NCBI RefSeq assembly: GCF_015523155.1
Contig: NZ_WAKW01000055.1
Coordinates: 1-50,219, forward strand
Source: Methanothermococcus sp.
GTDB taxonomy: Archaea > AGJL01 > Methanococci > Methanococcales > Methanococcaceae
DNA length: 50,219 bases
Reading direction: 5' to 3'
Shown here one piece after another: positions 1,228-13,143 of the stretch (position 1 is the first letter of the stretch; every line of letters starts with the position of its first letter). The notes under the pieces were generated by a model, which saw nothing but the letters and a program-made list of their open reading frames with translations, had not been told where the DNA came from and made no database searches. A program made the translations under genes and the position numbers.

Positions 1228-2457
1228 TTAAATTCTTCTTACTTCAATTACTTCCTCTGTTTCATCATCTTTTACGATGACGTGTGTTGCACATGAAGCT
1301 CATATGTCGTAGGCACGCATGATAACTTCCGCATATTGATGGGGGTATTTTTCAATAGCCTTCTCAACTATTGGGAAGTTCCATGTTGATGCCGCTATGA
1401 TGTTATAAGATTTAATTTTTCCATCTTTTCCTACTGTGGCCATATGAGTATTCATAGCCCTTGGAGCTTCATGAACTCCAATTCCTGAACCATCTTTGTA
1501 TTCAGGAGTTACCTTTGTTTTTCCGTTAATATTTAACTCATCAAGAATTTCCAATGCCCTATAAACTGCTCCAAAGTTTTCCTGGGCTCTTGCAATATTT
1601 ATATCCATAGCACTTCCGCCTTCTCTGAAATTTCCAAATTTAACCATTCGAGCTCTTGGACCTCCCTCTGTTGGAACTCCCGCATAAAATGGTATTTGAT
1701 TTGTTGCAGTTTGGGCTATCTCCAAGTTTTCATAATATCTTTGAGCAGGAATTTCTGTAACATCATTCCAGTTTATAGCATTCCTATTACCATAGGTTGT
1801 GTGAGATGCTATATATGGATATTCATGAGCTCCTAAATCTGGTATTCCTATTTCTTCAAGGTATCTTTCGATTAATCCTGTGTAGATTTCATACATTGTT
1901 TGAGCATCTTTTTCATACTGCCTGCATGCATAGTATAATTTTGATTTCGCCCTTTCAGAGATGTTATTTCTCATACCACCTATTACAATATTCGGTGGAT
2001 GTATTCCCTCTCCCCCGACAATATCCACTATTAACTGACCAGCTTTTCTCATTCTCTGAATGAGTTTTATGGCATCTGTCCTTAAACCGGTTTCCTCAGG
2101 TTTTATGAAGTCATCCGCAGTTAATAGATGGTGCAGCGCATGGGAGTGCATTCTATTTCCTAAACCTACGAGCTCTCTTAGTAACATACCATCTTTTGGC
2201 ACTTCACAGCCAATTGCATTTTCAATTGCCTCACAGGATGCTATACCATGTGTTGCCTGACAAATACCGCAAATTCTCATAACTGCAATAGGTGCAAAAC
2301 TCGCAGGTTTTCCTTTCAACATTGTTTCAAATCCCCTTACAGGGGTTGTATTTGGATAATATGCTTTACTTACAATTCCTTCGTCATCTACCTCTAATAC
2401 CAATTTAGCATGCCCTTCATGCCTTGTTGTTGGCGTAATTCTTACTGTTTCTGCCAC
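1228..2457 (-). CDS. fruA: F420-reducing [NiFeSe] hydrogenase large (alpha) subunit, selenocysteine-containing
   Basis: Catalytic subunit of the F420-reducing hydrogenase, holding the Ni-Fe centre. The N-terminal metal motif RICGICQATHG gives two Cys (about residues 63 and 66). At the C-terminus the reading frame meets TGA at 1300-1302 and continues as DI-U-ASCATH, the position normally held by Cys in the DPCxxCxxH-type motif, so the TGA is read as selenocysteine at about residue 386. The protein then runs 23 more residues to TAA at 1228. Total length is about 409 residues, counted from a GTG at 2457 preceded by GGAGGTGA with 5-base spacing. In-frame codons reach further upstream, but FruA-type proteins begin close to ETVRITPTTRHEGHAK, which supports this start. 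Annotation that stops at the TGA would lose the essential second metal motif. Confidence 0.93.
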
Positions 2458-2639
2458 ATGAGTCACCTCCAAAATAGAAATAGTTATAATATATTTTTTT
2501 AATGGCATTATATAAAGAAATATCTTTTTAAATATCTAAATAAGGGTGTTTAATTTTTTAAATCCTAAAAAAAATTAATTTATTAATATTTATTTAATAA
2601 AAATAATTAAAATAGTGATAAAAAATAAAAAATAATATT

Positions 2640-3908
2640 TTAAAATAAGGGTAATATGCTCCCCACAGTTGGGGCCATTGCAGGAATTTTGAAATTTTTC
2701 CATATCGTCATAGCAAGGGATAGTGCCTGATATCTTTCTCCATGCATTACAAAGACCTTTTTTGGTTTTGGTATCTTTTTTAAATATCTTACCAATGAGT
2801 TATAATCCCCATGGGCAGAAAATTCTATTTTAACCACCTCTCCATTTATAGGAAGTTTATTTTTAAATGGAACTATTTCTCTTGCTCCATCTTCGAGTTG
2901 CCTTCCCAATGTGCCTTCAGCCTGGTATCCCGTTAATATAATCTTATTTTTTGGGTCCTTTAAAAGTTTTAGATACTGCAAAACAGGACCGCCCTGAACC
3001 ATTCCAGATGTGGATATTATTATACAAGATTCGTCTTTATTAAATACCTGCTTATTTGCTTTCTTCACATCACCAAATGGATTTATCCTGTTTTCAAGAC
3101 TATTCCTTATCTTTGGATTTAGCCATTTCGAATAGCTCAGATATACCCCAGTAGTGTGAATCAACGAGCCATCCACATAAACAGGAATGGTTTTTAACAA
3201 TCCGCTCCTCATATAATTGGATATTATAGCCATAATCTCCTGGGACCTTCCAACTGCGAATACTGGAATAATTATCTTTCCTCCTTTTTCTATGGTTTTT
3301 GAAATCTCCTCTACAAGCTGTTTTTCCAAAACCTTTCTCGCTGGCTTTATATCCATTGGAGAACCATAGGTTGATTCTATAATCAATGTATCTATTTCAT
3401 CTATATTGGTATCCGCAGGACGTAGGGTTTTAGTTTCTATTTCATTAATATCCCCAGTATATAATACTTTTTTTCCATCTATATCTAAATATATTGAAGA
3501 GCTTCCAAGAATATGGCCTGCATCATGTAATTTTAAAGAAATATCCTCTGTTATTTTTTTTTCTTCTCGGTAATTTAACGTCTCGATGGCGTCCATGGCT
3601 CGTTTTATATCTTCCTCCCCATATAATTTGGAAAGTTTTGATATATCCTTCCAAATTACATACATTAAATCTATGGTTGGAGCTGTGCAGTATATTTTTT
3701 TAAAATTAAAATAAGGAACTGCACCGCAGTGGTCTAAATGAGCATGTGATACCACTACTGCATCTATGTCGGTTGAATTTATATTTGGCAGACTGTTATC
3801 CGCTGGATTCATTCCGCAGTCCAGTAATATTTTTGATTTTTTCGTATTTATCTCTACACAGGACATTCCTATTTGATGACATCCTCCGTGAAATCTAATT
3901 ATTGACAT
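2640..3908 (-). CDS. Archaeal beta-CASP ribonuclease, aCPSF2-like (no KH domains)
   Basis: Metallo-beta-lactamase/beta-CASP nuclease of 422 residues. Motif 2 is SHAHLDHCG, an early Asp is in LLDCGMNPA, later motifs include HDAGHILGSSS and YTGDIN, and the beta-CASP region has IIPVFAVGRSQE, STSGMVQGG and FSAHGD, ending in VMHGE. The opening RFHGGCHQIGMSCVEI and the lack of N-terminal KH domains fit the shorter archaeal CPSF-like protein (MJ0047 type) rather than aCPSF1/FttA or archaeal RNase J. Expected role: Zn-dependent endo/exonucleolytic RNA processing or decay in the cytoplasm. It stands alone, 105 bp from the convergent-side amidohydrolase gene. The exact in vivo substrate cannot be told from sequence. 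Confidence 0.85.
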   Translation of the reverse strand: MSIIRFHGGCHQIGMSCVEINTKKSKILLDCGMNPADNSLPNINSTDIDAVVVSHAHLDHCGAVPYFNFKKIYCTAPTIDLMYVIWKDISKLSKLYGEEDIKRAMDAIETLNYREEKKITEDISLKLHDAGHILGSSSIYLDIDGKKVLYTGDINEIETKTLRPADTNIDEIDTLIIESTYGSPMDIKPARKVLEKQLVEEISKTIEKGGKIIIPVFAVGRSQEIMAIISNYMRSGLLKTIPVYVDGSLIHTTGVYLSYSKWLNPKIRNSLENRINPFGDVKKANKQVFNKDESCIIISTSGMVQGGPVLQYLKLLKDPKNKIILTGYQAEGTLGRQLEDGAREIVPFKNKLPINGEVVKIEFSAHGDYNSLVRYLKKIPKPKKVFVMHGERYQALSLAMTIWKNFKIPAMAPTVGSILPLF

Positions 3909-4013: not shown

Positions 4014-5165
4014 TCACTGATTTATAATATCTCCTTTTTCACATCGTGTTATAATTGATGCTACGATATTCTTAGAGTATTTTATTGAAGGTGATTTTTT
4101 AATAAATGTAAATGTGGCTTTATAGCCTTCATCAATCAATCCAACATCTTTGAGCCCCAAAATCTTAGCATTGTTTATTGTGGCAAATTTCAATATCTCT
4201 TTTGGGTCAATGTGATACAATTTATAGATAAAATCCATTTCTTTAAACAAGGATGGGGAGTTAGCCATGAAATTGTCTGTTCCAAGCCCAACAAGCACAT
4301 TATTTTTTAAAAGTTTAATTATATCGGGTAATCCCACATTAAATGATGCATTTGCCCTTGGACAGACTACAACAGGTATGCTGTATTCATATAGGAGTTC
4401 CGCCTCATGAGATGTTGCATGGGTTGCATGTATTATAAAATTTGGATTGAGCTTTAAATCAATTATTCTTTCTATTTCGGTTTTTCCATAGGTTTCCTTT
4501 GAGTAATCAACGGAACCTTTATGCTCATTTGCATGTATTGAAAAAATCTTATAATCCTGACTTCTAATAAATTTTAAATCCTTGTCAGTATATTCATTAC
4601 ATCCGCTTAACCCTATTCCATCGGAATTTTTTAAAATATCCCTTATCTCTTTCTTTAATTCTTCATTGTTGGATTTTGTAGGTCTTCCCAATATTATGGG
4701 TTTTAGGAGAGTATTATTTTTAATGTTTTGGGTAAACGATTTTTTAAACAATTTATAAGATTCTTTAAAAATATTTATGCCCCTTAATCCGTTTTCTCTG
4801 AAATCACAGAAATATTTTATTCCATTGTTATGGAGCTCATGCAATCCATCCAACATCCCATGTATTAAATCTTTATCATCACAAGTATTTAAAAATTTAT
4901 GTTTCAATCCGTTTGGTGGTTTCACGAGTTCATCAAGGCTTTTGTTTATTCCGATGTCTTTTATAATATTATCGCCAATATGGGTGTGAGCATTTATAAG
5001 GGGCGGCATTATTACTCCGTCGTATTTTATATAATTTTTAATGTCTTCATTTGTGAATCCTTTTATTATACTATCTTCGATTACTAAAATACCTTTTTTA
5101 TATTCAAATTCACTTCCATATAAAAAATTTGATTTTATGTATATTGTGTCCATGTTTGTGTTCAT
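4014..5165 (-). CDS. Amidohydrolase-family metal-dependent hydrolase (chlorohydrolase/deaminase-like)
   Basis: TIM-barrel amidohydrolase of 383 residues. Metal-binding features visible in order: NAHTHIGDN (HxH on strand 1), FSIHANEHKG, the HATHAT segment, and GLGTDNFMANSPS with the C-terminal catalytic Asp. This pattern fits the cytosine deaminase/5'-deoxyadenosine-MTA-SAH deaminase branch, but the sequence is short and divergent for the methanogen enzyme DadD, so no substrate is assigned. The start is ATG at 5165, preceded by AGGTGAGCTC, so a GAGCTC palindrome sits between Shine-Dalgarno and start. Divergent from thyA across a 160-bp AT-rich gap. Confidence 0.75.
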   Translation of the reverse strand: MNTNMDTIYIKSNFLYGSEFEYKKGILVIEDSIIKGFTNEDIKNYIKYDGVIMPPLINAHTHIGDNIIKDIGINKSLDELVKPPNGLKHKFLNTCDDKDLIHGMLDGLHELHNNGIKYFCDFRENGLRGINIFKESYKLFKKSFTQNIKNNTLLKPIILGRPTKSNNEELKKEIRDILKNSDGIGLSGCNEYTDKDLKFIRSQDYKIFSIHANEHKGSVDYSKETYGKTEIERIIDLKLNPNFIIHATHATSHEAELLYEYSIPVVVCPRANASFNVGLPDIIKLLKNNVLVGLGTDNFMANSPSLFKEMDFIYKLYHIDPKEILKFATINNAKILGLKDVGLIDEGYKATFTFIKKSPSIKYSKNIVASIITRCEKGDIINQ

Positions 5166-5326: not shown

Positions 5327-5986
5327 ATGTTTATTAAAAAACCATCGGTAAGGGCGAGTTATGAATATTTAGTTGAGAAAATACTAAAAGATGGAGAAGA
5401 CATGATAACAGAAGACGGGCAAAAGTGTAGAGAGATTCGAAATACAGTAATAGAAATCACAAATCCGAAATTAAAAAGTATAAGTCCAAAATATCCTCTT
5501 GGAAAAAAGGCAGTGGAACAATACACGAATAATTTATTATATGGAAATTCAGGGGAAGGTCGGTTTGTTTATGATTATTATGAACGAATTAGGGAATATC
5601 CAAGTTATGATAAATCCTTGAAAAATGACCAAATAGAGTATGTGATAAATAAACTTAATACTAATCCAGAATCAAGAAGATGTATAATATCCCTTTGGAA
5701 TCCATACATTGACCAAAAAGTAAAGGATGTTCCATGCTTAAACCATATAGGATTTCAGAAATCTGGAAATTACTTATACATGAGCGTATTATTTCGTTCT
5801 AATGATATTTTACTTGCCTTTCACTCTAATGCCGTAGGTTTAATTAGTTTAGGTGAATATGTGGCAGAAAAAACAAATTCAACATTAAAAAGTTATACTC
5901 ATTTTATATATAATGCTCATATCTATGTCGATAGGGATGCTGATTATATCAAAAAGTATTTTCCAGATTGTTTAAACTATTTATAG
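5327..5986 (+). CDS. thyA: Archaeal thymidylate synthase (ThyA-like), 3' end replaced
   Basis: Archaeal short-form thymidylate synthase/dCMP hydroxymethylase family protein, 219 residues, expected to methylate dUMP. Features: SRRCIISLWNP, the nucleophile Cys in DVPCLNHIGFQ, RSNDILLAFHSNAVGL and the nucleotide-binding YTHFIYNAHIY near the C-terminus. Length is close to that of its methanogen relatives. The start is ATG at 5327 after AAGTGAT. A decayed homing endonuclease gene begins 9 bp after the stop, and a second, diverged version of the thyA C-terminus (DYIKKYFPECLKYLE against DYIKKYFPDCLNYL here) lies beyond it at 6941-7006. The present 3' end is therefore probably not the original one. 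The catalytic core is intact, so the protein should be functional. Confidence 0.82.
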   Translation: MFIKKPSVRASYEYLVEKILKDGEDMITEDGQKCREIRNTVIEITNPKLKSISPKYPLGKKAVEQYTNNLLYGNSGEGRFVYDYYERIREYPSYDKSLKNDQIEYVINKLNTNPESRRCIISLWNPYIDQKVKDVPCLNHIGFQKSGNYLYMSVLFRSNDILLAFHSNAVGLISLGEYVAEKTNSTLKSYTHFIYNAHIYVDRDADYIKKYFPDCLNYL

Positions 5987-5994
5987 GTGAGAAT

Positions 5995-6937
5995 GTGGGT
6001 AAAAGAAAAGTTAATGATGAGATGATTAGTGAATTTATTAGACTTTATGAACATGAAAAATTAACCACGACCGAAATAGGTAAAATGTATGATGTTAATA
6101 GTACAACAGTTTAGCTTTATTTAAAAAAATATGGTGTTAAAATTAGAAGCACATATGAAAGTAATTATATAAAATCTTCAAAATTACTAAATTTAGAACC
6201 ATCTGAAAGTTTAGCATATGTTTTAGGAGTAATAGAAGGAGATGGATGTGTATGTGCTTATAAAAAACAAGGACGTTATTCAATTCAATTAGAAGTAATT
6301 GATAAAGATTTTGTTGATGAATTTAAAAAACATTTGAAAAAAAATAGGGTTTATAAACATTACAGAATATCCAAAAAGATTCGAAAATAAAAATGATAGC
6401 TATGTAGTACGTGTAAATTCAAGATATTTTTATGACTGGTATCAGTCATTAAATAAATATGAAGATTTTAAAAAATTATTGGAAGGCTGTGAAAAATATA
6501 TATGTGCATTTTTAAAAGGAATGTTTGATTCAGAGGGTTCTGTGGCATTACAATATGGTAAAAAAGGGCAAGTTATAAGTGGGAATATTCAAATAGCAAA
6601 TTCAGATGAAAAATTAATTGATTTATGTTGTTATTTTTTAGATAAATTAAATATTGACTATTATATCAGCATTGCAAAAAGAAAAACAAAGGATATTATT
6701 ATAATATATATTAAACCGAATAGTTATAATGATTTTAAAAATTTAATTGGAACTTCTATAAATAGAAAATTAAGTAGAATGGAAATATTATGCAATATAA
6801 AAAGAAGAAAACAATTAACAAATGAAGAAAAATTAAAAATAAAAGAATTGTATAAAACAGGGCACAATATAAATAAAATATCGAAAATAATAAATAGAAG
6901 TAGAACAGCGATAAGAAATGCTATAAAGGATATATAA
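5995..6937 (+). pseudogene. Decayed LAGLIDADG homing endonuclease gene with N- and C-terminal HTH segments
   Basis: Reading from GTG 5995 (GGTGA 4 bases upstream) gives an N-terminal helix-turn-helix (LTTTEIGKMYDVNSTTV), an in-frame TAG at 6112-6114, then the first LAGLIDADG helix AYVLGVIEGDG. A frame change follows in a run of eight A at 6337-6344; shifting one base there restores KKIGFINITEYPKRF. The second motif ICAFLKGMFDSEG comes next, then a C-terminal HTH (INKISKIINRSRTAIRNAI). With two lesions the enzyme is probably inactive. The part from 6479 alone could still give 152 residues with one LAGLIDADG motif. It lies in the thyA 3' end and lacks intein splice-site residues, so it looks like a free-standing mobile endonuclease gene. 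It carries no GAGCTC palindromes. Confidence 0.85.
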
Positions 6938-6940
6938 ATA

Positions 6941-7006
6941 AGAGAATATAGGGTCAGGGATTATATTAAAAAATATTTTCCTGAATGTTTGAAATATTTA
7001 GAATAA
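6941..7006 (+). pseudogene. Displaced copy of the thyA 3' end downstream of the endonuclease gene
   Basis: Reading from 6941 gives RDYIKKYFPECLKYLE and a TAA, matching the last residues of the intact thyA (DADYIKKYFPDCLNYL) with conservative changes. Insertion of the endonuclease gene near the thyA stop, bringing its own version of the 3' end, would strand the original end here. No start codon or ribosome binding site is visible, so it should not be translated. Confidence 0.75.
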
Positions 7007-7100
7007 TTTTTCATTTTTAGGGGGTGGAATTATAGGAGCTCCTACGATATATTATGAAGACGGAAGAACAGAAGATTTTTATGATAAATTTATAGAATGT

Positions 7101-8840
7101 TTGGAAAATAGGGAAGATTTTAAGTTAAATGATTGCGTTGTTGGTGGTATCGCTTCTATTGAACATATATATAATAAAATTAAAAATAAGAAATTAAAAG
7201 GAGCTACAATTAAAGAAAAAGATGATGAAATAATTATAACCATAGATATAAATGTTCAGATTTTCAAGGTTGAATTTAAAGATGATTTTATATTTAAAGG
7301 TTTCGTAGATGGGGTAGTTAAAAAACCTGTTAAAATAGTATTCACCAAAGAAGTTGTTTTTTGGAGCTCCACATTTAACGGAGATGCTTATTTTGGATAT
7401 GCCACATTTGAAAAAGATGCTGATTTTAGAGATACTATATTTAATGGGTGGGCTTATTTTAGCAATACTACATTTGAGGGGGATGCTGATTTTAGTTATA
7501 CTAAATATAAGGTAGAGGCTTATTTTAGCAATACTACATTTAATAAGAAGGCTGATAATAAGAAGGCTGATTTTAGCAATACTACATTTGAGGGGGATGC
7601 TGATTTTAGCAATACTACATTTAATAAGAAGGCTGATTTTAAATATGCCACCACATTTAAGAAAGAGGCTTATTTTATATATACTATGTTTGAGGATAAG
7701 GCTTATTTTAGCAATACTACATTTGAGGGAAATGCTAATTTTAGCAATACTATATTTAAGAAAGAGGCTTATTTTGGATATTTAAGATATACCACCACAT
7801 TTAAGAAAGAGGCTTATTTTAGCAATACTACATTTAATAAGAAGGCTGATTTTGGTAGTGCGATATTTGAACATGCGATATTTAAACACACCACATTTAA
7901 AAAAGACGCTGATTTTAAAAATACAATAAGTGGTATATTAGAATTTGATAAATCAACTTTTGAAGATATCGCATATTTTAGGGATATTTATTTTGGCTTA
8001 TTATCTTTTATCGATTGCACATTTAAAAACATGGCAGAATATAGATATAAAGTAAAATCCGAAGAAGAATTAGATAAGATTAATAAAGAAATAGTAAAGA
8101 CAATAAACAAATACAATAATATAGCCATTTTTAATAATGCCCAATTTTTAAACAAACATACTAAAATAATTAATTTCCAATTGTCTAAAACATCATTTTT
8201 AATGACGGATATGCGGGAAGTAATGTTATTACATAATATCGAAGAAAATAATGAAAAAATATTAAGCCATATATTTTTTGAGATTAAGAAAGAAAACAAA
8301 GAAGAACATGCCATATATAAAAAAATATATGATATTCTTAGAGAGGATGAACATCATAAAGAATTTTATAAAGACTTTTTAGAGTATTTAAATGAAAAAT
8401 CAGTCCTTGCAGAATATAGAAATTTAAGATTATCCATTGAAGATAATATAACTTATGAAGAAGCATCTGATTTGTATAAATTAGAAATGGAATTTAAAAA
8501 AGAATATTCAGAAAATGATTTTGAAAAACTATTTATCCATATTTATGGCATAATATCTGATTACGGGGAATCCGTAAAAAAAATAGGATGGTGGATAATT
8601 TGTATATTGGGGGCATTTACAATTTTGGCTTCGAGTTTTAGATGTAAAAGGATTGAGTGGGATATTTTTAAGATAGTGGAATTTTGGTGGATTTCATTTA
8701 TAGAAGTAATAAGAATATCATTACAAATGAGAACAAACGATAAATCATTATGGGCATTAGAGCCATTTATAAGAATGGCATCTTTAATTTTATTAGGTAA
8801 TCTCTACATCGCACTTAGGAGAAGATTAAGCAGAAAATAA
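7101..8840 (+). CDS. Pentapeptide-repeat protein with C-terminal membrane segments
   Basis: Long protein whose middle (roughly residues 85-320) is a run of pentapeptide repeats of the AxFxx type (ADFSN, TTFNK, KADFS, EAYFS), expected to fold as a right-handed quadrilateral beta-helix. Several DNA repeat units are nearly identical, pointing to recent expansion. A charged helical region follows, then hydrophobic segments near residues 500-515 (WWIICILGAFTILASSF) and at the C-terminus (MASLILLGNLYIAL), so it is likely membrane-anchored. Start uncertain: TTG at 7101 has no clear ribosome binding site. The frame is open from 7002, and protein-like sequence (IGAPTIYYEDGRTEDFYDKF) reads from about 7029, where only ATT/ATA are available after GGGGTGG. 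Function unknown. Confidence 0.7.
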   Translation: MENREDFKLNDCVVGGIASIEHIYNKIKNKKLKGATIKEKDDEIIITIDINVQIFKVEFKDDFIFKGFVDGVVKKPVKIVFTKEVVFWSSTFNGDAYFGYATFEKDADFRDTIFNGWAYFSNTTFEGDADFSYTKYKVEAYFSNTTFNKKADNKKADFSNTTFEGDADFSNTTFNKKADFKYATTFKKEAYFIYTMFEDKAYFSNTTFEGNANFSNTIFKKEAYFGYLRYTTTFKKEAYFSNTTFNKKADFGSAIFEHAIFKHTTFKKDADFKNTISGILEFDKSTFEDIAYFRDIYFGLLSFIDCTFKNMAEYRYKVKSEEELDKINKEIVKTINKYNNIAIFNNAQFLNKHTKIINFQLSKTSFLMTDMREVMLLHNIEENNEKILSHIFFEIKKENKEEHAIYKKIYDILREDEHHKEFYKDFLEYLNEKSVLAEYRNLRLSIEDNITYEEASDLYKLEMEFKKEYSENDFEKLFIHIYGIISDYGESVKKIGWWIICILGAFTILASSFRCKRIEWDIFKIVEFWWISFIEVIRISLQMRTNDKSLWALEPFIRMASLILLGNLYIALRRRLSRK

Positions 8841-11033: not shown

Positions 11034-11636
11034 ATGAAAGCATCAGATGTATTGAATACATTGAATATATCTAGAATAACATTATACAGATTAGTTAAAA
11101 GGGGAGAAATTAAAGCAGAAAGATTACCAAATGGTAGATTAAATTATGATGAAGAAAGTGTTTATAATTACTTACTAAAAATGCATGGGAAACCACCACA
11201 TAGAAAAACAATAATCTATGCGAGAGTTTCAACTAACAAACAAAAAAAGGATTTGGATAATCAAGTAGAATTATTAAAACAGTTTTGCATATCTAACGGC
11301 TGGAAGATAGAAGGAATTTACAGTGATATAAATTCAGCGTTAGATTTTGATAATAGAAAACAGTTTTGGAAACTATTTGAAATGGTTCAAAATCATGAAG
11401 TAGAAAGAGTTGTAGTTTCTCATAAGGATAGATTAACAAGAATAGGTTGGAATTTTTTTGAGAGTTTATTTAAAAAATACGGTGTTGAAATCATAGTTGT
11501 TAATGACTACAACAATGATAAAACTGATGTAGATGAAATATTGGAGGAAATAATAACTTTACTACATTCATTCCCAATGAAGTTTTATTCTAAACGAAGA
11601 TTGATAAAATCAAATATTAAAGAGTGGATAAAATGA
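11034..11636 (+). CDS. tnpA: IS607-family serine recombinase (transposase TnpA)
   Basis: Resolvase-type transposase of 200 residues. The N-terminal MerR-like helix-turn-helix (SDVLNTLNISRITLYRLVK, then GEIKAERLPNGR) is placed before the catalytic domain, the arrangement that defines IS607 recombinases. The catalytic domain starts at IIYARVSTNKQKKDLDNQ, in which the Ser of ARVST is the nucleophile, followed by the conserved HKDRLTRIG. It would cut and rejoin the element ends by a covalent phosphoserine mechanism. No frameshift is seen; the gene looks intact. The stop TGA overlaps the tnpB ATG (ATGA at 11633-11636), so the two are translationally coupled. Confidence 0.92.
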   Translation: MKASDVLNTLNISRITLYRLVKRGEIKAERLPNGRLNYDEESVYNYLLKMHGKPPHRKTIIYARVSTNKQKKDLDNQVELLKQFCISNGWKIEGIYSDINSALDFDNRKQFWKLFEMVQNHEVERVVVSHKDRLTRIGWNFFESLFKKYGVEIIVVNDYNNDKTDVDEILEEIITLLHSFPMKFYSKRRLIKSNIKEWIK

Positions 11637-11718
11637 AAGTAATAACCGAATTTTCATTTATGATTCACGCCTTAAAAACCTTACAAAGTTCTCATTAATC
11701 TTAGCACATTTCAGAAAC

Positions 11719-13143
11719 ATGTTGTTCATCCTAATACATCAACTAAAAGAGAAGTTAGGGTATTACCTAACTATTGAAGCCCTGCTTTACTCTTTATTAG
11801 TTGATAAATTAAACATATCCAAAACAAAAGACCAAAATAAAGTAGAAAAGTTAAACCAACTATTAAAAATCATCAATTCAGATACTAAATTATCCAAATT
11901 GTTAAAGGATATGAAAGAATTAAAGAAAGACATCAGCAACACTTATGCTATTCAATCAGTTATAAGAATCACATGTAAGAACTTCAAAGCATATAGAAAA
12001 GCTTATGAAGAATACTTAAAAGAACCTTCTAAATTCAATGGAGTACCGAAACCCCCCAAACCAAAGAAGTTAAAAAACATAGATAGATTTACAGTAGAAT
12101 TAAATAAACTTTCATTTAAAATCCTTAATGGAATTTTACACATCAAACTCCACAATGGGAAAAAGGTTAAAGTTAAAATGCCCAAATATTTGATTAATCC
12201 ATCGAGTGTTAGGATTACTTACTATTTGGGATTTGCATTTATTGATATTGTATTCGATAAATACATAGAAGAATTGAATCCATTATTTAATCATAAAGCA
12301 GGGATTGATTTAGGGGTAGAGAATTTCATTACATTGGTTTCTAATGGTAGAAACATTCCATCCTTAGTTATTAAGTCAGCTCATCTAAAATCCTATAACC
12401 AATGGTTTAATAAGTTATTAGCTAGTTTAAGAAGTGAGTTGGATTTATTAAGAAATGAATATAAAGAAAATAAGAATGATGAGTTATTATTGAAAATAAT
12501 AGAATTGGAAAGAAGAATCAAAAACTTGTATTTAGATAGAAAGAAATGGATGGAAAATTTAGTTCATCAAATAGCTAAGGCGTTAGCATTGTATTTACAT
12601 AGAACAGGACATGATTGTGTTTATGTTGGTAATAATCTATTGGAAGCAAAACAATGTTCTAATATGAGCAAAAAGAATAATCAAAATTTCATCCAAATAC
12701 CATTTAGGTTATTCCTTGATAAATTAGTTTATAAACTCCAATGGTTTGGGATTAAATTGTATGAAGTTGATGAATCATGGACTTCTAAATCAAGTTGTAT
12801 TTCTGATGATGTTTTAAAGATACAAAGAAAATTTAGAAAAATCTTAAAATTAGATGACGATAAAGAAAAAGGTAAGCAAATAGGAATATTAAAAAACTCC
12901 ATGTCGGGAGTTAGATTCACAAGAAGTTTATTCAAAGATACTAAAATAAATAAAGTGCTCCATGCTGATGTAAATGGAGCATTTAATATTTTAAAAGTTG
13001 GTTTAAAAGCAAAGGAATTGTTTAATAATTTGGATTCAAAAGTAATAATGAAATTATGCAATCCAATTAAAAATAATATCTTTAAGTTCTGTGAATTCGT
13101 CTTAAATAAAGCAACTTCCGAGCCATTCTATATAGAATGGTAG
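11719..13143 (+). CDS. tnpB: TnpB RNA-guided nuclease of the IS607 element, 5' end frameshifted
   Basis: TnpB/OrfB-type RuvC nuclease. RuvC-I is AGIDLGVENFITLV and RuvC-III is HADVNGAFNIL, each with its catalytic Asp. The usual RuvC-II Glu site reads VYVGNNLLEAKQ; a Glu lies about 46 residues later in VDESWTSKSS, the layout known for TnpB and Fanzor proteins with a rearranged catalytic site. The Cys4 zinc ribbon is absent. The ancestral start is probably ATG 11633, which reads MKVITEFSFMIHALKT before a stop at 11696; the frame then shifts to FSLILAHFRNM, leading into the long frame. The first usable start in that frame is ATG 11719 (474 residues), losing about 28 N-terminal residues, so activity is doubtful. 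Confidence 0.85.
   Translation: MLFILIHQLKEKLGYYLTIEALLYSLLVDKLNISKTKDQNKVEKLNQLLKIINSDTKLSKLLKDMKELKKDISNTYAIQSVIRITCKNFKAYRKAYEEYLKEPSKFNGVPKPPKPKKLKNIDRFTVELNKLSFKILNGILHIKLHNGKKVKVKMPKYLINPSSVRITYYLGFAFIDIVFDKYIEELNPLFNHKAGIDLGVENFITLVSNGRNIPSLVIKSAHLKSYNQWFNKLLASLRSELDLLRNEYKENKNDELLLKIIELERRIKNLYLDRKKWMENLVHQIAKALALYLHRTGHDCVYVGNNLLEAKQCSNMSKKNNQNFIQIPFRLFLDKLVYKLQWFGIKLYEVDESWTSKSSCISDDVLKIQRKFRKILKLDDDKEKGKQIGILKNSMSGVRFTRSLFKDTKINKVLHADVNGAFNILKVGLKAKELFNNLDSKVIMKLCNPIKNNIFKFCEFVLNKATSEPFYIEW

Follow-up and report, generated by a model that had tools for sequence, protein, structure and literature searches.

A LAGLIDADG endonuclease gene with a replacement gene end behind archaeal thyA: a probable homing element outside introns and inteins

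Organization of the thyA locus

The window (the whole stretch of DNA analysed, 50,219 nucleotides) belongs to a draft methanococcal genome (G000) and contains the sole thymidylate synthase gene of that genome. The thyA reading frame (5327-5986, plus strand) is intact, codes for 219 amino acids and ends with DYIKKYFPDCLNYL and a stop codon. Its product scores 203 bits with TIGR03283 (cut-off 174.6), which identifies it as an archaeal thymidylate synthase. A degraded LAGLIDADG homing-endonuclease gene (HEG) begins 8 nt past the thyA stop, and behind this gene comes another thyA end in frame (Table 1). The comparison of thyA with the downstream DNA in blastn gives 36/42 identities (E 6e-10) for this second end, of which only ~48 bp, the last part, survives.

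Table 1. Features of the thyA region of the window
Feature	Position	Strand	Basis
Amidohydrolase gene, native left flank	4014..5165	-	amino acid identity 87% (G011), 75% (G009), 74.5% (G012)
thyA codons 1-72, native N-terminal part	5327..5542	+	DNA identity, breakpoint, N-part tree
Foreign part of thyA, from codon 73 to the stop (C-terminal two thirds with working end)	5543..5986	+	identity to G012; C-part tree
thyA motif NAVGLISLGE, predicted endonuclease target	5828..5857	+	start point of the left-behind ends in G023 and G028
Degraded LAGLIDADG HEG: GTG start, N-terminal helix-turn-helix, two LAGLIDADG motifs, C-terminal helix-turn-helix	5995..6937	+	alignment to G032 HEG; PF14528; HTH_38
In-frame TAG of the HEG	6112..6114	+	translation; alignment to G032
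LAGLIDADG motif 1 (LAYVLGVIEGDG)	6211..6246	+	translation, frame 5989
A8 run with 1-nt frameshift in the HEG	6337..6344	+	frame resumes with IGFINITEYP from 6344
LAGLIDADG motif 2 (ICAFLKGMFDSEG)	6500..6538	+	ORF 6479-6937
C-terminal helix-turn-helix of the HEG	6815..6934	+	alignment; HTH_38
Left-behind old thyA end (DYIKKYFPECLKYLE, then stop)	6959..7006	+	E 6e-10 to thyA; continuous with native flank
Pentapeptide-repeat gene, native right flank	7035..8840	+	PF13576; homologue at the same place in G011, G009 and G012

Judged from its sequence, with an in-frame TAG and a frameshift, the HEG of the window is a pseudogene; the sequence-only reading of this DNA had correctly recognized a LAGLIDADG gene here, but missed that it is dead. 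The C-terminal half matches LAGLIDADG_3 (PF14528, E 3.7e-9), and the relic, read through its lesions, shows 46-47% amino acid identity over 314 residues to an intact 322-residue HEG found at the thyA locus of a second genome, G032. The intact protein matches PF14528 with E 4e-19 and carries the motifs YILGVIEGDG and FLKGMFDSEG, in which the acidic residue at each motif end is kept; the relic has the same two LAGLIDADG motifs. Both thyA HEGs possess a C-terminal helix-turn-helix, which their relatives at other loci lack. The structure model of the G032 protein (pLDDT 88.1) shows the two-domain LAGLIDADG fold, and the closest solved structure is I-DmoI (E 1.4e-9, probability 1.00, TM score 0.72 on target length); sequence comparison of the HEG with solved structures gave no useful match. 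With both catalytic acids kept and an I-DmoI-like model, it is plausible that the predicted G032 enzyme is an endonuclease. Outside thyA, its closest relative lies in genome G023 directly before tRNA-Arg(TCG) (L060, 2998-4050, minus strand) and has several additional helix-turn-helix repeats at the N terminus. Among the viral contigs searched there were no thyA relatives and one distant relative of the HEG.

In G011 and G012 the pentapeptide-repeat gene starts with ATG; the window has ATA (or ATT) at this place (7029-7035), and G009 is also devoid of ATG there. The gene may use a rare start codon or the downstream TTG at 7101. Farther downstream (11034-13143), a serine resolvase with HTH_17 is followed by an OrfB/TnpB-like gene, which by its gene content looks like an IS607-type insertion sequence.

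Mosaic structure of the window thyA

The two parts of thyA resemble different relatives. Codons 25-72 show 86-92% DNA identity to the congeners G011 and G009 (which we take to be M. okinawensis and M. aeolicus, respectively) and 64-83% to G012, a member of another genus, whereas codons 73 to ~199 are about 90% (83-97%) identical to those of G012 and 39-64% to those of G011 and G009. The best breakpoint was placed at codons 70-73 (0/5000 permutations). The foreign stretch thus starts at codon ~73; the proposal that the 3' end of thyA had been replaced stands as to the replacement, but its extent is larger than the end region first suggested. The last ~14 codons of the working end are again G011-like.

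Over these last ~14 codons both ends of the window are close to G011, perhaps as a result of conversion between the two copies. In the 65 bp that can be compared, the left-behind end has its best match in G011 (80%, versus 71% to the working end of the window itself), and it runs into a right flank that is 79% identical to G011 over 275 bp. Taken by themselves, the sequences of the two short ends are equivocal as to the direction of the replacement, and a direction claimed from them alone was rejected, since the last ~14 codons of both are G011-like. The direction in the window therefore rests on the mosaic of the whole gene, on the flanks and on the other loci.

The same arrangement in other Methanococcales

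The survey comprised 35 full-length thyA genes of Methanococcales. The order thyA, HEG, second end, noticed at first in the window, was found at 4 of the 35 loci, namely in the window and in three further species (G032, G028 and G023). In the case of G032 (Methanocaldococcus sp. MAG 4571-419) the intact HEG lies a few bases past the thyA stop and is followed by an old end of 42 codons (tblastx E 4e-18). G028, presumably M. jannaschii, has a HEG full of stops, and in G023 the HEG is cut down to ~40 codons of its start; in both, the old end follows. At all three loci the second end is much longer than in the window, and its similarity to thyA more significant. An assembly chimera is an unlikely source of the arrangement, which is also seen in genomes assembled as single chromosomes. 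Both conditions that the sequence-only reading had set for its refutation turned out in its favour: the downstream similarity is significant, and tandem ends, which were looked for in relatives lacking the insert, were not found downstream of thyA within the DNA compared.

At these three loci the left-behind ends are of the native type. The old ends of G032, G028 and G023 show 82/77%, 80/77% and 83/87% identity to the uninvaded congeners G024/G029, versus 68%, 57% and 69%, respectively, to their own working ends, and in G032 and G023 the old end continues directly into the flank seen behind thyA of the uninvaded congeners. This agrees with the initial view that the HEG had replaced the thyA end and left the old one behind, the working end being the foreign one. 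Both in G023 and in G028, the left-behind end starts at the same place, NAxG|LIxLGE; that of G032 has its first bases deleted. An alignment to 1bko places the NAxGLIxLGE motif immediately behind the conserved Asn of thymidylate synthases. The two ends of G032 (L032) share more than 40 identical bases within otherwise diverged sequence, as if local gene conversion linked them.

Mosaic breakpoints were also found at codons 140-145 of G032 and G028 (0/5000 permutations each) and at codons 14-15 of G023 (0/5000, with G014, G012 and the window as the donor-like set; weaker, 57/5000, with G022/G026 in that role), and none was found in the uninvaded controls G011 and G024. The tree of the N-terminal part (codons 2-72) follows the genera. 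In the tree of the C-terminal part (codons 140-206), the window, G012, G014 and G023, which represent four genera, form one clade (support 100/99), and G028 and G032 fall with another genus, that of the window; over most of the G028 and G032 working end, even its nearest known relatives reach only 64-78% identity. G012 and G014 have the foreign C-terminal part and neither HEG nor left-behind end, and the final codons of G012 as well as its flank resemble the native type.

Among the 35 loci, the C-terminal part of thyA comes in two types that have diverged strongly and occur dispersed among the genera, so that thyA gene trees mislead here. The type is swapped even within one genus (G014 versus G016).

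Proposed mechanism

We consider it very likely that the locus is, or descends from, a homing element that requires neither intron nor intein, the distribution and the mosaics pointing to endonuclease-driven mobility at thyA. The mobile unit would consist of the replacement 3' end of thyA and the LAGLIDADG HEG directly behind it. The enzyme would cut uninvaded thyA inside the NAxGLIxLGE codons, just past the conserved active-site Asn, and the invaded copy would serve as the template for the repair of the break. On the left side, upstream thyA would be co-converted over a variable length (~30 codons in G028 and G032, ~100 in the window, ~155 in G023), bringing in an end from the donor that already deviates at the target; the window copy of the motif is presumably a resistant version. 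On the right side, the repair would stop inside the native thyA end of the recipient, which would then remain downstream of the HEG. In this way thyA would remain whole, and translation of the HEG is probably coupled to it. The common start of the left-behind ends in G023 and G028, the deletion in G032 and the remnant in the window are as expected if the endonuclease cuts there and if the two sides of the break are repaired as proposed.

The genes downstream of thyA differ between genera, the window having the pentapeptide-repeat gene there and Methanocaldococcus a different flank, so the left-behind end would offer the only right-hand homology for a transfer across genera. It may thus act as a homology arm for re-homing where the downstream genes differ. 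Afterwards the HEG would decay, as in the window and G028, or be deleted, as in G023. Recombination between the two ends could also remove it cleanly, leaving a foreign or hybrid end and no HEG; G012 and G014 look like such products, their former possession of a HEG being a guess.

Alternative explanations

The thyA mosaic could be produced by ordinary horizontal transfer or recombination alone, with the HEG present by accident and the second end a remnant of an imperfect crossover. The two divergent thyA types across the order and the mosaics that today have no HEG (G012, G014) are in line with such an origin. However, all four loci with a HEG or its relic (4/4) combine a foreign working end with a left-behind end, and the uninvaded loci have no left-behind end; moreover, the left-behind end starts at the same point in two loci, and the unrelated gene aspS (see below) shows the same linkage, so that HEG-free transfer is considered improbable. 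Still less probable is that the insertion duplicated the gene end, as a target-site or tandem duplication, and that one copy diverged later. A recent common sequence of the two ends would be possible from their 86% identity in the window and from the identical part in G032, but at G032, G028 and G023 the old end is only 57-69% identical to the working end versus 77-87% to uninvaded congeners, and in the tree the working end falls among other genera. The sequence-only reading, which had argued from the base differences that the ends are not a simple target duplication, is borne out by these values.

It is very hard to reconcile the data with a HEG inside an unrecognised spliced element (a group I, BHB or other intron) whose true last exon would be the downstream end, and we regard this as the least probable origin. 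Archaeal group I introns do often carry LAGLIDADG HEGs (PMC6125680), but the upstream thyA copy is complete up to its own stop codon and codes for an entire thymidylate synthase, and in the window, G023 and G028 truncation or a frameshift has damaged the downstream copy. The search of the four loci (L001, L066, L034 and L039) for Rfam intron families, up to E 1, matched none; the sole Rfam match there was to one sRNA family (E 0.18, below its cut-off). An intein was likewise rejected, as the thyA stop precedes the HEG and the G032 HEG is a separate reading frame. The host gene is thus kept working by a complete thyA with its own stop, as had been proposed, with no intron or intein involved.

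A second case at aspS and the frequency of the arrangement

The same arrangement was found in another archaeal lineage at L123 (G370:C45:24541-28371). There, an intact LAGLIDADG HEG (1321-2349, minus strand), a distant relative of the thyA HEG, lies directly behind an aspS-like gene (2420-3740, minus strand) and is followed by a second, in-frame aspS end (37 residues, not shown). This end shows 79% amino acid identity over 38 residues (E 2.8e-13), and the frame of the HEG runs into it at GLGLDR, a class II synthetase motif. The working end of G370 aspS is 91% identical to the HEG-free congener G337 and ~70% to the other congeners; the G337 gene has the appearance of a cured allele. As the DNA downstream of aspS in G370 is unlike that of all congeners, either of the two ends may be the native one.

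When flank was compared with flank, no repeated gene end was found at other free-standing HEGs of Methanococcales (MJ0398-like, MJ0314-like and L060), nor at 10 loci in more distant archaea (L113-L122) and 10 more. The end-replacement mode thus appears to be uncommon, since ~20 other free-standing HEG loci have no repeated gene end and L123 is the only addition. Another free-standing LAGLIDADG family, the MJ0398-like one (L062-L065, L114-L120, L122), is placed convergently beside tRNA-Met(CAT), an address shared by Methanocaldococcus and a different archaeal family (f7). Its conservation in these sequences suggests that the tRNA gene or its flank is the target.

Relation to known systems and implications

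The closest parallels are the gene hybrids formed by mobile reading frames in fungal mitochondria, described for atp6 of Allomyces macrogynus and for atp6, atp9, cox2 and nad3 of Glomus (PMC3630166), with cob/atp6 hybrids in Endoconidiophora (PMC6279837). As in these, an endonuclease frame is inserted towards the 3' end of a conserved gene, a foreign C-terminal piece keeps the gene working, and the native C-terminal piece, matching close relatives, lies downstream. The thyA case differs in its archaeal chromosome, the soluble enzyme encoded by the gene, the helix-turn-helix domains that flank the HEG, the long co-conversion (up to at least two thirds of the gene) and the series from intact to deleted HEG across genera. 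The insertion mode, initially called little-described, is so for archaea but not in general, as fungal mitochondria have the same mode (PMC3630166, PMC6279837). No archaeal description of gene-end-replacing HEGs was found in the literature outside subscription papers, and priority is not claimed; the thyA end replacement is a variant, new in archaea, of a mode known from fungal mitochondria.

Intronless homing by the T4 seg endonucleases (PMC2988022) is similar in having a free-standing HEG beside a presumed target gene, co-conversion of flanking markers and no splicing. In phages, the distance between the cut site and the place of HEG insertion amounts to hundreds or thousands of bases (PMC2988022). 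HEGs of the phage type stand between intact genes and bring no host gene end with them; the thyA HEG appears to travel with a new gene end, and the old one is left behind. At Aeh1 mobE/nrdA (PMC2988022) the HEG also lies in a conserved coding region with no splicing element, but nrdA becomes two assembling pieces, whereas thyA is made whole again by the imported end. T4 td/I-TevI and I-BmoI (cited in PMC3943268) share with our case a thymidylate synthase target and a conserved coding sequence as the site, but are GIY-YIG enzymes in self-splicing introns, the thyA HEG being a LAGLIDADG gene with no intron. I-DmoI and the archaeal intein endonucleases share the two-motif LAGLIDADG fold; they live in an rRNA intron or in inteins, whereas the thyA HEG lies behind a replacement gene end and has extra helix-turn-helix domains. 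We presume that the I-TevI and I-BmoI sites and the predicted site of the thyA HEG are near each other in the gene.

In a wider sense, there is about an even chance that end replacement is a third mode of residence, beside introns and inteins, for HEGs in essential archaeal genes, in which the left-behind end serves as a homology arm for the next cross-species transfer and as a repeat for clean loss, and by which large C-terminal parts of thyA and aspS are exchanged between genera. The locus extends a mode of residence of selfish genes from fungal mitochondria to archaeal chromosomes, with stages from the intact element to the apparently cured allele preserved in relatives. With its intact candidate enzyme and the target predicted for it in a housekeeping gene, G032 makes the whole cycle testable. 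The cycle would provide a concrete mechanism for mosaic essential genes common to several genera, which would mislead gene trees.
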